From contig NZ_CP114288.1 in NCBI RefSeq assembly GCF_027111335.1, forward strand, positions 1,798,001 through 1,862,000: a stretch of DNA of 64,000 nt. Reading direction: 5' to 3'. Made by a program: the position numbers and the translations under genes. Below are positions 11,821-58,806 of this stretch, piece after piece. Position 1 is the stretch's first letter; every line of letters starts with the position of its first letter. This DNA is from Flavobacterium aquiphilum (GTDB taxonomy: Bacteria > Bacteroidota > Bacteroidia > Flavobacteriales > Flavobacteriaceae). The notes under the pieces were generated by a model. That model ran no database searches and was not told where the DNA came from. It saw only the letters and a program-made list of their open reading frames with translations.

Positions 11821-11951
11821 GGAGCACCACATTTGGTCTTTTTTAGGGAGATTAGTCCCGCCATCCGCTTCACACGAGCGATAGCAAACTGACGAAGTAA
11901 TCTTATAAGCCGAACCCCGGCTTATAAGGATTTTTACTACTGTCGGGGCTA
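11821..11951 (+). repeat. Dispersed hairpin element, copy A
   Basis: It starts GGAGC, contains GTCCCGC at the left, a central perfect 11 bp hairpin (CTTATAAGCCG / CGGCTTATAAG, 11902-11928), and ends GATTTTTACT...TCGGGGCTA. Compared with the other copies there is extra sequence (bases ~11871-11896) in the left half. It occupies most of the rimO/OmpP1-gene gap (11713-12063). Confidence 0.7.
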
Positions 11952-12009
11952 TTGAAGAAATTTTGTTTTTCATAACCTGAACTCTAGGAAAGCTTTATGT
12001 GTAAAAAAC

Positions 12010-16276: not shown

Positions 16277-16348
16277 GGTCCGTTCGTCTATCGGTTAGGA
16301 CGCCAGGTTTTCATCCTGGTAAGGGGGGTTCGATTCCCCCACGGACTA
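16277..16348 (+). tRNA. tRNA-Glu (UUC)
   Basis: 72 nt. Acceptor GGTCCGT/ACGGACT, anticodon stem CCAGG/CCTGG with loop TTTTCAT (anticodon TTC), T stem GGGGG/CCCCC with TTCGATT. The 3' CCA is not encoded. Confidence 0.97.
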
Positions 16349-16397
16349 CAAGAAGTGTTTAGATTGAAAAAATTCTGAGAATACAAAAAAGATTACT

Positions 16398-16469
16398 GGT
16401 CCGTTCGTCTATCGGTTAGGACGCCAGGTTTTCATCCTGGTAAGGGGGGTTCGATTCCCCCACGGACTA
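16398..16469 (+). tRNA. tRNA-Glu (UUC), second identical copy
   Basis: Identical over all 72 bases to the copy at 16277-16348; the spacer between them is 49 bases. Confidence 0.97.
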
Positions 16470-16513
16470 CAAATTTTTTCAATCTAGAATGTTCCAGAAC
16501 TTAGAGGGATAAT

Positions 16514-16585
16514 GGTCCGTTCGTCTAGGGGTTAGGACGCCAGAATTTCATTCTGGTAACAGGGGTTCGATTCCCTTACGGACTA
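16514..16585 (+). tRNA. tRNA-Glu (UUC), divergent third copy
   Basis: The acceptor stem and the anticodon TTC are the same. The D loop, anticodon stem (CCAGA/TCTGG) and T stem (AGGGG/CCCTT, one G-T pair) differ from the first two copies. Pairing is kept throughout, so it should be functional. Confidence 0.95.
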
Positions 16586-21067: not shown

Positions 21068-21104
21068 AATCCCAAATTCGATAAGAGTTTGGGATTTTTT
21101 TTTT
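21068..21104 (+). terminator. Terminator after typA
   Basis: AATCCCAAA / TTTGGGATT, 9 bp stem with an 11-base loop and an unbroken T-run that continues directly into repeat copy B. Confidence 0.8.
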
Positions 21105-21211
21105 GGAGCAGAAACATAAGGCATTTTTTGGAGGCATTGGTCCCGCTTTTCGTTGCAATCTTTTTATTTTTAAAGAAAAAATAAAAAGGATTTTCACTTC
21201 AATCGGGGCTA
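21105..21211 (+). repeat. Dispersed hairpin element, copy B
   Basis: It starts GGAGCAG, has GGTCCCGC and CGTTGCAATC, a central A/T hairpin (21160-21188, 12 bp), then GATTTTCACTTC and TCGGGGCTA. GTCCCG and CGGGGC can pair as an outer stem. It begins at the last T of the typA terminator. Confidence 0.75.
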
Positions 21212-21234
21212 AAGGGAAGCATTGTCTCTTTTTA

Positions 21235-49080: not shown

Positions 49081-49140
49081 GTAGATTTTTAATGTTGGCG
49101 CGACTTTTAAATACTCGTAAAAAACGAAAATCTTGATTTT

Positions 49141-49242
49141 TAGCCCCGATTGAAGTAGAAATCCTCTTGTGCTGGGGTTCAGTACAAGAGATTGTAGCGT
49201 AAAGCGGGAGTGAACTTGTGAAAAACACAAATGTTCTGCTCC
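49141..49242 (-). repeat. Dispersed hairpin element, copy C (reverse)
   Basis: Read on the minus strand: GGAGCAGAAC..., CTCCCGCTTTACGCTACAATC broken by the hairpin CTCTTGT...ACAAGAG (49164-49190, 11 bp with one G-T pair), then GATTTCTACTTCAATC and GGGGCTA. CCCG at 49145-49148 and CGGG at 49205-49208 can pair as an outer stem. Confidence 0.75.
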
Positions 49243-57415: not shown

Positions 57416-57545
57416 GGAGCGGAAAGATTTAGCATTTTTGGAGGTATTGGTCCCGCCATTCGTTGCAATTCCCGATAAAGAAAAAACTACGGCTAAAAAA
57501 GCCTTGTTTTTCTAAATCGGGAGATTTTCACTTCTGTCGGGGCTA
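57416..57545 (+). repeat. Dispersed hairpin element, copy D
   Basis: GGAGCGGAAAG..., GGTCCCGC, CGTTGCAATT, hairpin (57470-57522, interrupted arms TCCCGAT..ATCGGGA with inner AGAAAAA/TTTTTCT), GATTTTCACTTC, TCGGGGCTA. The central hairpin is the longest of the five copies. The copy starts at the last T of the terminator. Confidence 0.75.
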
Positions 57546-57610
57546 AGGGCAGACATATGACTTTTTTGGAATCAATCTTGTTCAAAGACCTAACAGGTTT
57601 TCAAAATCCG

Positions 57611-58543: not shown

Positions 58544-58630
58544 GTCATTGCGAGGGACGAAGCAATCACGCGAAATTAAGCAAGTAAAGAGGGTGAAAAC
58601 AAGTGTGATTGCTTCGTTCCTCGCAAAGAC
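58544..58630. repeat. SLRGTKQS-type palindromic repeat
   Basis: GTCATTGCGAGGGACGAAGC...AATCAC (58544-58569) pairs with 58605-58630 (26 bp, two mismatches) around a 35-base loop. The gap 58391-58806 holds this, the solo end and copy E; no gene was found. Confidence 0.65.
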
Positions 58631-58677
58631 ATACGGAATGAAAATAATATTTTCAAATAAGCCTATTGCTTACTCTT

Positions 58678-58792
58678 TAGCCCTGATAGAAGCGAAAATC
58701 CTCCTGTGTCTCGTTTTTTCAACGAGACACAGGAGGGTTGTAGCGGATAGCAGGAATCCATGCCTGCCTGATAAAGCCTATTCTTTCGCTCC
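58678..58792 (-). repeat. Dispersed hairpin element, copy E (reverse)
   Basis: Read on the minus strand: GGAGCGAAAG..., CCTGCTATCCGCTACAACC, a perfect 16 bp central hairpin (58700-58736), GATTTTCGCTTC, TCAGGGCTA. In the outer stem, CCTG at 58682-58685 pairs with CAGG at 58751-58754, in place of CCCG/CGGG elsewhere: a compensatory change. Confidence 0.78.
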
Positions 58793-58806
58793 TAAAAAAA
58801 ACATTT

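Follow-up and report, generated by a model that had tools for sequence, protein, structure and literature searches.

The window, a stretch of 64,000 nucleotides, holds five copies (A to E) of one dispersed element at positions 11821, 21105, 49141, 57416 and 58678, and when the sequence was read each of them was present where an earlier, sequence-only reading had placed it. The gene upstream of copy E is one that we take to be COX15/ctaA-like. Also in the window are three tRNA genes in close tandem (16277-16585) and, beside copy E (58545-58630), an inverted pair of TTGCGAGG.ACGAAGCAATC repeats, which by eye occupies the same place in a related genome, G180 (locus L169), with a different middle, and is degraded in another, G173 (L175).

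All five copies belong to Flavo-1 (RF01705, Rfam type sRNA), a family listed in 2010, in the part of that source available to us, as a probable structured RNA of Bacteroidetes (PMC2864571). In an Rfam scan four of the five scored above the gathering score of 42 bits. Copy A scored below it, probably because a 27-nt insert sits in one of its arms, and was found with our own covariance model, R1, over positions 11884-11950. Because its training set was 34 of the 54 copies that have a 78-nt core, R1 favours the GGGGTT hairpin class described below. Other copies, too, have inserts of the copy A type, in one arm or the other. The sequence-only reading wrote the element in the complementary orientation; the Flavo-1 strand is minus for A, B and D and plus for C and E. 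The sequence-only reading was right that this is a dispersed structured element; it missed the membership in an Rfam family, and it missed that the hairpins are shared modules that appear to change place. The features are collected in Table 1.

Table 1. Positions of Flavo-1 parts in the window (coordinates of the window) and of other elements in the genomes or loci indicated.
Feature	Position	Strand	Basis or remark
Copy A core, GGGGTT-tip hairpin at 11902-11928	11850-11954	-	RF01705 29.2 bits (below cut-off); R1 E 4e-10
Copy A insert (ACTTCGTCAGTTTGCTATCGCTCGTGT on element strand), between frame and hairpin	11872-11898	-	sequence
Copy B core, T-rich-tip hairpin	21135-21214	-	RF01705 82.2 bits
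Copy B GGAGC box, preceded by terminator-like hairpin and T-run	21105-21109		terminator by eye
Copy C core, GGGGTT-tip hairpin	49138-49215	+	RF01705 70.8 bits
Copy D core, long-hairpin class (CGATTTAGAAAAACAAGGC..); GGAGC box 57416-57420	57445-57548	-	RF01705 52.7 bits
Copy E core	58675-58761	+	RF01705 match above gathering score
Copy E 5' arm of frame (AGCCCTGATAGAAGCGAAAAT), two GNA-type 3x3 internal-loop halves	58679-58699	+	sequence, Rfam, pairing analysis
Copy E variable hairpin, 16-bp stem (58700-58715 with 58721-58736), 5-nt loop, CTCG..CGAG tip class	58700-58736	+	sequence, fold
Copy E 3' arm of frame (GTTGTAGCGGATAGCAGGA)	58737-58755	+	sequence, Rfam
Copy E tail box GCTCC and A-run (GGAGC of the earlier reading, other strand)	58788-58799	+	sequence, consensus
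IS982-family insertion sequences	G000:C1:557501-558514, 4993236-4994249, 1494845		ends resemble best-preserved long Flavo-1
GCGTGAGGG-type related element	G000:C1 995382, 1156140, 1665341; G173 413136, 2901361, 4264133, 4310098; L268:17096; L297:11009; L163

In the home genome (G000; 5.05 Mb, one contig) at least 139 matches to Flavo-1 were found at E <=0.01, 133 of them over the cut-off, among the best 150 of 1626 candidates that were scored; G173 has 96 matches and G180 has 48. Across 37 Flavobacterium genomes, the home genome included, counts ran from 0 (two genomes) to at least 65, with one or more matches in 35, and a search of 60 genomes gave a match in 40 and a match over the cut-off in 38. 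Among 80 loci around a gene that we presume to be gldA-like, R1 gave 24 matches at E <=1, in 18 loci. The positions in the home genome depart from a uniform distribution (KS p 0.002). No listed copy lies at 3.01-3.58 Mb or at 2.38-2.69 Mb of G000:C1, that is, across 567 kb and 309 kb, and these stretches are possibly acquired DNA near the terminus.

Pairing, covariation and the strand that folds

On the element strand the commonest core reads AGCCCCGAT-X-G-N-A-R-Y-G-N-A-AAT-C, followed by the hairpin and then by GATT-G-N-A-R-Y-G-N-A-X'-AGCGGGA. The two arms, which we call the frame, form short helices split by two 3x3 internal loops of the GNA/GNA type, with a bulged C under the hairpin; in each loop the G.A opposition is found in 32 and the A.G opposition in 33 of 34 copies. 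Loops of this type with sheared G.A pairs are stable in both RNA and single-stranded DNA. A variant of the frame, GGCATCC..GATAYAG, is also present among the copies. A long form carries an extra tail ending in CTGCTCC and an A-run, and in a short form AGCTCC follows the arm directly. The consensus of 169 aligned copies comprises the AGCCCCGAT..GCGGGA arms and the GCTCC/A-run tail, and in the best-preserved long copies the ends reach inverted repeats, AACCTGAGTTCGATTATTA..TAATAATCGAACTCAGGTT.

The suggestion that selection acts on the structure is supported by covariation. The 34 copies analysed are related and came from a search and selection with a structure model, both of which favour the figures; 98.7% of their cells are paired, 113 cells are changed on both sides, and 15 of 22 pairs have changes on both sides, values not reached in any of 500 shuffles. 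The replacement of CCCG/CGGG by CCTG/CAGG in copy E, read earlier as compensatory, is a real compensated pair: in 165 parsed frames (100 of 131 from the home genome and 65 of 78 from G173) it is C-G in 120, T-A in 30, A-T in 9, G-C in 5 and T-G in 1. The 16 bp counted for the copy E hairpin were likewise confirmed, and its fold is far from chance whether computed as DNA (z -5.4) or as RNA (z -5.5).

The hairpin stems of three genomes contain 56 G-T wobbles against 12 A-C mismatches (30:4, 15:6 and 11:2), although the structure model behind the search is specific to one strand, misses decayed copies and may favour G-T over A-C. These counts exclude 42 of 275 copies, whose starts were unusual or which contained odd letters; a stem was obtained for 217 of the remaining 233 (112/116, 73/79 and 32/38). 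In two genomes the counts were 44 and 9 (p 1e-6), and at frame pair 15-56 there are 20 T-G against 3 C-A. The pairing constraint on Flavo-1 thus fits a strand-specific one, in which a single strand folds, as RNA or as DNA.

Hairpin classes and orthologous sites

The hairpins had been described as unrelated in sequence. This did not hold: the five window copies sample four recurring classes that are seen again among the genomic copies, namely a GGGGTT tip in A and C, a T-rich tip in B, a long CGATTTAGAAAAACAAGG hairpin in D and a CTCG..CGAG tip in E. The tip classes that we recognised are the GGGGTT loop, CTCGTCCCAAAAGACGAG (in both orientations), TTTCTTTAAA, the long CGATTTAGAAAAACAAGGC form and CCCGATAGCTATCGGG. 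Extraction gave no result in 27 of 209 copies, and 154 of the 182 hairpins extracted are distinct. In the stretches of the home genome that were fetched, the tip modules lie inside listed copies, the exceptions being the unlisted copy A and loose matches of the GGGGTT type, the loosest pattern having 47 matches inside copies and 11 outside. The genomes differ in how often each tip class occurs (chi-square 30.2, 8 d.f., p 2e-4). Near-identical hairpins are found in both long-form and short-form copies, and an identical twin exists for 11 of 131 hairpins in the home genome and 21 of 78 in G173. The rarity of identical donors implies either that the events are old or that compensatory drift also alters the hairpins. 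Since a few stems are common, chance may account for some cases in which copies share a stem and have swapped tips.

Comparison of orthologous sites separated the history of the frame from that of the hairpin. Pairs of copies in which both flanking regions match (mean identity 82-85%) numbered 36 between the home genome and G173, 30 between the home genome and G180 and 15 between G173 and G180, three sets that share genomes and are not independent. Flank-based comparisons used the 131 of 139 home copies for which flanks were fetched; a first comparison with G173 used 78 of its 96 copies, and the comparison in 36, 30 and 15 pairs used all 96. The hairpins exceed the 95th percentile of random pairs in 5/36, 8/30 and 4/15 cases, respectively, and the remainder average 0.52, 0.50 and 0.49 identity against 0.51-0.52 for random pairs. 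The tip class agrees in 13/36, 10/30 and 6/15 pairs, with 8.7, 6.6 and 3.6 expected at random. Mean frame identity at the same sites is 0.72-0.81, against 0.64-0.67 at random. Taken singly, 13/36, 12/30 and 10/15 of the 5' frames and 17/36, 10/30 and 8/15 of the 3' frames lie above the random 95th percentile; many single frames are too diverged to stand out, and inheritance of the frame holds on average.

Position by position, we examined the first set of home-G173 pairs. Of its 40 flank-matched G173 copies, 3 have no listed home copy, and orientation differed in 2 of the remaining 37, which were left out; parsing of the frames left 26 of 35 pairs, 21 of them with a replaced hairpin. In these 21 the outer covarying pair reaches 0.79 and the next about 0.45 in chance-corrected agreement, which falls to 0.30 and 0.34 (5' side) and 0.16 and -0.03 (3' side) at the inner pairs, and is about zero beside the hairpin. 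Over the first dozen or more flanking positions it is mostly 0.3-0.7, fading outward, and flank positions outside the element are nearly randomised between species. Frame pair 10-61 shows a two-sided change in 8 of the 21 pairs and a one-sided change in none, a pattern for which conversion with independent tract ends would need selection, or else a symmetric mechanism would be needed. No recent hairpin swap between close strains was seen; the species compared differ by 15-18% in the flanks, so that single events and tract ends lie beyond resolution.

Individual sites illustrate the range. At the copy E site, G173 and G174 carry Flavo-1 with different hairpins (by eye, and for G173 also by script comparison), G180 has a tail remnant only, and six close relatives (L170-L174 and L176) are without the element (by eye). 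Before a metH-like gene the hairpins are nearly the same in the home genome, G173, G180 and F. degerlachei and differ in F. frigidarium, F. weaverense and F. sp. 1355. Elsewhere a far larger insert (..GCGACCAACGGAAGCTC.. or similar) stands in place of the hairpin, at G000:C1 1572290-1572432, at 4316021-4316163 in G180 and at L302:10946-11078; this insert is common to the home genome, G180 and a metagenome-assembled genome and is absent from the orthologous copy in G173. We also observed a related dispersed element that has the same inner frame within an outer GCGTGAGGG..CCCGA..CACGCCC frame; its hairpins, too, are replaced at orthologous sites, as judged by eye for the home copies at 995382 and 1665341 against G173.

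The mirror image of the orthologous comparison is a set of 148 same-genome pairs with the same hairpin, which involve 108 copies and are not independent, one segmental duplicate having been removed. Here the flanking element sequence agrees at a near-random 0.06-0.19, the outer covarying pair at 0.57 and pairs further in at 0.33 and 0.43; agreement is 0.16 at the unpaired positions beside the hairpin and -0.08 at positions 12/59. Subfamily structure may contribute to this combination of low agreement beside the hairpin with 0.57 at the outer pair. For 56.1% of 275 copies, the closest hairpin at a non-orthologous site is one from the same genome; permuted labels gave a mean of 37.7%, and none of 500 permutations reached the observed value. 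Taken together, the replaced orthologous hairpins, the mirror test and the same-genome nearest hairpins suggest that hairpins travel between sites within a genome and that frames stay.

Gene context and candidate movers

Of the 131 home copies with flanks, 18 overlap a predicted reading frame (12 of these shorter than 100 aa). The 113 others were classified as lying between tandem genes in the same (33) or the opposite (35) direction, between convergent genes (23) or between divergent genes (22). Intergenic regions of at least 80 nt without a copy show a similar mix (203 tandem, 45 divergent and 42 convergent), and the orientation of Flavo-1 to genes is random. Promoter-like sites are not enriched upstream (8 of 275 copies, shuffled mean 5.8), and the hypothesis that the element has its own promoter is not supported. 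Nor is there a U-run directly after the hairpin, as an intrinsic terminator would have; in the copies read, GATTG.. or GATA.. stands there. In 43 of 227 copies, for example at window 21080-21110, the other strand has a terminator-like hairpin and T-run that end at the GGAGC box, the 3' edge of Flavo-1, compared with 10 of 227 at a control position, which hints at insertion beside terminator T-tracts. A bias toward one replication strand (82 of 139 copies on the G-rich strand, p 0.04) was set aside as weak; the switch points were estimated from sampled stretches, and dnaA, at 1.53 Mb in the home genome, lies away from the skew switch.

Two kinds of transposase were considered as the mover. PF01797 matches, which mark candidate RAYT genes, are present in 33 of 60 genomes, and G003, G010, G026 and G027, all rich in Flavo-1, have no such match. 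Scanning of 15 Y1 (RAYT-like) loci gave no Flavo-1 match in the six lower-scoring ones, with flanks of up to 1.5 kb, and a single one, about 0.7 kb away at L144, in the nine higher-scoring ones. In two rich genomes, G008 and G012, the RAYT-like genes inspected (L162 and L165) are flanked by different palindromes, GCGCGGATTTGCAATCCGTGCC. These Y1-type genes lie between repeated GATAGCGCGGATTTGCAATCCGTGCCC palindromes, which are probably their own REPs. At L163 a related GCGTGAGGG-type element lies roughly 0.6 kb downstream of the RAYT-like gene. The mark of a REP is a short palindrome with GT[AG]G at its foot, although RAYT subclass 2.6 lacks this tetranucleotide according to the accessible part of PMC6006769; the consensus of the 169 aligned Flavo-1 copies has no GT[AG]G there. 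Most of the evidence is against a RAYT partner.

The home genome has an intact IS982 element whose ends resemble those of the best-preserved long Flavo-1 copies and whose transposase scores 267 bits against NF033520 (cut-off 130). Of the IS982-family insertion sequences in Table 1, that at 1494845 seems to lie within the arm of a Flavo-1 hairpin (L366). With an end profile seeded partly from the copies counted, TIR-like ends were found at the expected distance in 22 (5') and 34 (3') of 209 copies, both in 11, against 0 and 2 in controls. An IS982 transposase over the cut-off is present in 6 of the 60 genomes, as against 38 for Flavo-1, and no match was found in several Flavo-1-rich genomes, such as G003, G026, G031 and G036; with the transposase missing from most hosts searched, IS982 was rejected as a general mover. 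Target-site duplications were sought at three site pairs that have no listed home copy. Only G173 4246671 resembles an empty site, and it is too diverged; at home position 774356 a degenerate Flavo-1 copy is present. No clean empty site that would define the element boundaries was found in the relatives compared, which are too diverged. Three elements of about 250-390 bp in G173 (C1:614035-614291, 4186467-4186724 and 3829676-3830068) have AACCTGAGTTCGATTATTA-type ends and another interior (..CGCTCCTATGGAGCT..), and probably constitute a separate MITE family. Neither RAYT nor IS982 explains the Flavo-1 family as a whole.

Interpretation and relation to known systems

The mosaic of frame and hairpin, the recurring modules, the strand-specific pairing constraint and the random orientation are observed. 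The reading of them that we favour, and consider somewhat more probable than not, is that Flavo-1 acts at the DNA level, as a dispersed palindrome of mobile origin, and that its hairpin core passes from copy to copy while the frame stays at its site. The outer frame would be inherited by descent, and the central core of about 30 to 70 nt would be copied from one genomic copy to another, presumably by ectopic gene conversion or by template switching during replication. A conserved arm of 15 to 25 nt on each side could provide the homology when the element is single-stranded. Selection would then remove broken frame pairs and so account for the joint changes of paired positions. From the constraint on pairing it follows that something uses or binds the folded single strand itself; the machinery that formerly spread the element is one candidate, and a replication or repair protein another. 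Of the readings offered earlier, a mobile non-coding origin gains from the dispersal described above (at least 139 matches in one genome, 0 to at least 65 per genome in the genus) and from TIR-like ends on a minority of copies, and a structured RNA becomes less likely, given the random orientation, the lack of promoter enrichment and the mixed published placement relative to transcripts. We regard as improbable a bolder version, a hairpin-cassette exchange system in which a putative dedicated enzyme recognises one folded strand of the frame by its GNA/GNA loops and 2-bp helices and swaps the hairpin between sites; if true, intergenic hairpins would be a reshuffled, variable trait of Flavobacterium genomes.

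The alternative implied by the Rfam entry is a structured RNA gene or cis-regulatory RNA, with a folding transcript and the hairpin as a free spacer. The covariation and the excess of G-U over A-C fit it, as does the type sRNA, and in the accessible part of a 2021 F. psychrophilum transcriptome several 5' transcript regions coincide with Flavo-1 matches (PMC9723704). The same source, in that part, describes the matches as indistinctly sense or antisense, places many outside transcripts and gives no function. Copies point with and against tandem genes about equally, promoter-like sites are not enriched over shuffled sequence, and exchange of hairpins between copies would be unexpected of RNA genes; we consider this reading unlikely. 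Hairpins could also have drifted in place by compensatory changes until the old sequence was gone, with no exchange at all. Full turnover by double changes is conceivable, given that flanks are near-randomised between species, stems do stay paired, and the four similar hairpins at the metH site form a gradual series. The recurrence of tip modules on nearly unrelated frames and almost only inside copies in the fetched stretches, the clustering of nearest hairpins within genomes and the near-identical hairpins in long- and short-form copies make drift on its own an improbable account.

Hairpin sharing might instead merely reflect transposition, Flavo-1 being a non-autonomous transposon (MITE) of the IS982 family. 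The excess of TIR-like ends over controls, the resident IS982 with matching ends and transposase and an IS982 MITE of about 240 bp described in Cardinium (PMC9769881, in the part available) speak for this; most copies have no recognisable outer repeats, the transposase is confined to few genomes and lacking from several rich ones, and same-hairpin copies mostly differ in their outer sequence, and we think such an origin improbable as an explanation of the sharing. Movement as a REP-type element by a RAYT (TnpA-REP) transposase of Bacteroidetes subclass 2.6 appears very improbable. Atypical secondary structures lie beside subclass 2.6 genes, according to the part of PMC6006769 available, PF01797 matches are present in 33 of the 60 genomes, and L163 has its related element, but 14 of the 15 Y1 loci are without Flavo-1, L162 and L165 have another palindrome at their flanks, and four rich genomes lack a PF01797 match.

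On the reading we favour, a family listed since 2010 as RNA looks more like an element of DNA, and its predicted copies would have to be interpreted differently; for a dispersed repeat, covariation alone is no proof that it functions as RNA. The separate histories of frame and hairpin would be a natural record of intragenomic recombination at hairpins.

Flavo-1 resembles REP/BIME elements with their RAYTs as a high-copy intergenic palindrome with a strand-specific fold and a suspected role at the DNA level, and differs in being much longer, in its interchangeable central hairpin, and in that no GT[AG]G head at the foot and no RAYT link were found. With IS982-family MITEs, such as MITECca01 (PMC9769881, as far as available), it shares IS982-like TIR ends on a minority of copies and a similar size of the long form. 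It is unlike them in that most copies are without recognisable TIRs, the core is conserved and folded, and IS982 is absent from most hosts searched. Integron attC sites also fold from one strand, with conserved arms that contain unpaired bases and a variable terminal hairpin. Flavo-1 is like them in all three respects, and unlike them in having no gene cassette and, by eye, no attC core motif. To the Flavo-1 RNA as described in the accessible part of PMC2864571 the likeness extends to sequence and structure model, occurrence in Bacteroidota, the conserved stem and the variable central hairpin. As listed it is an RNA; here it is a larger element with recurring modules, hairpin exchange, random orientation and no promoter enrichment. 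In the open-licence literature, as far as it was accessible, we found no description of hairpin exchange in Flavo-1. The family itself is thus already known, and what is new is the replacement of hairpins at fixed sites and the separate histories of frame and hairpin.
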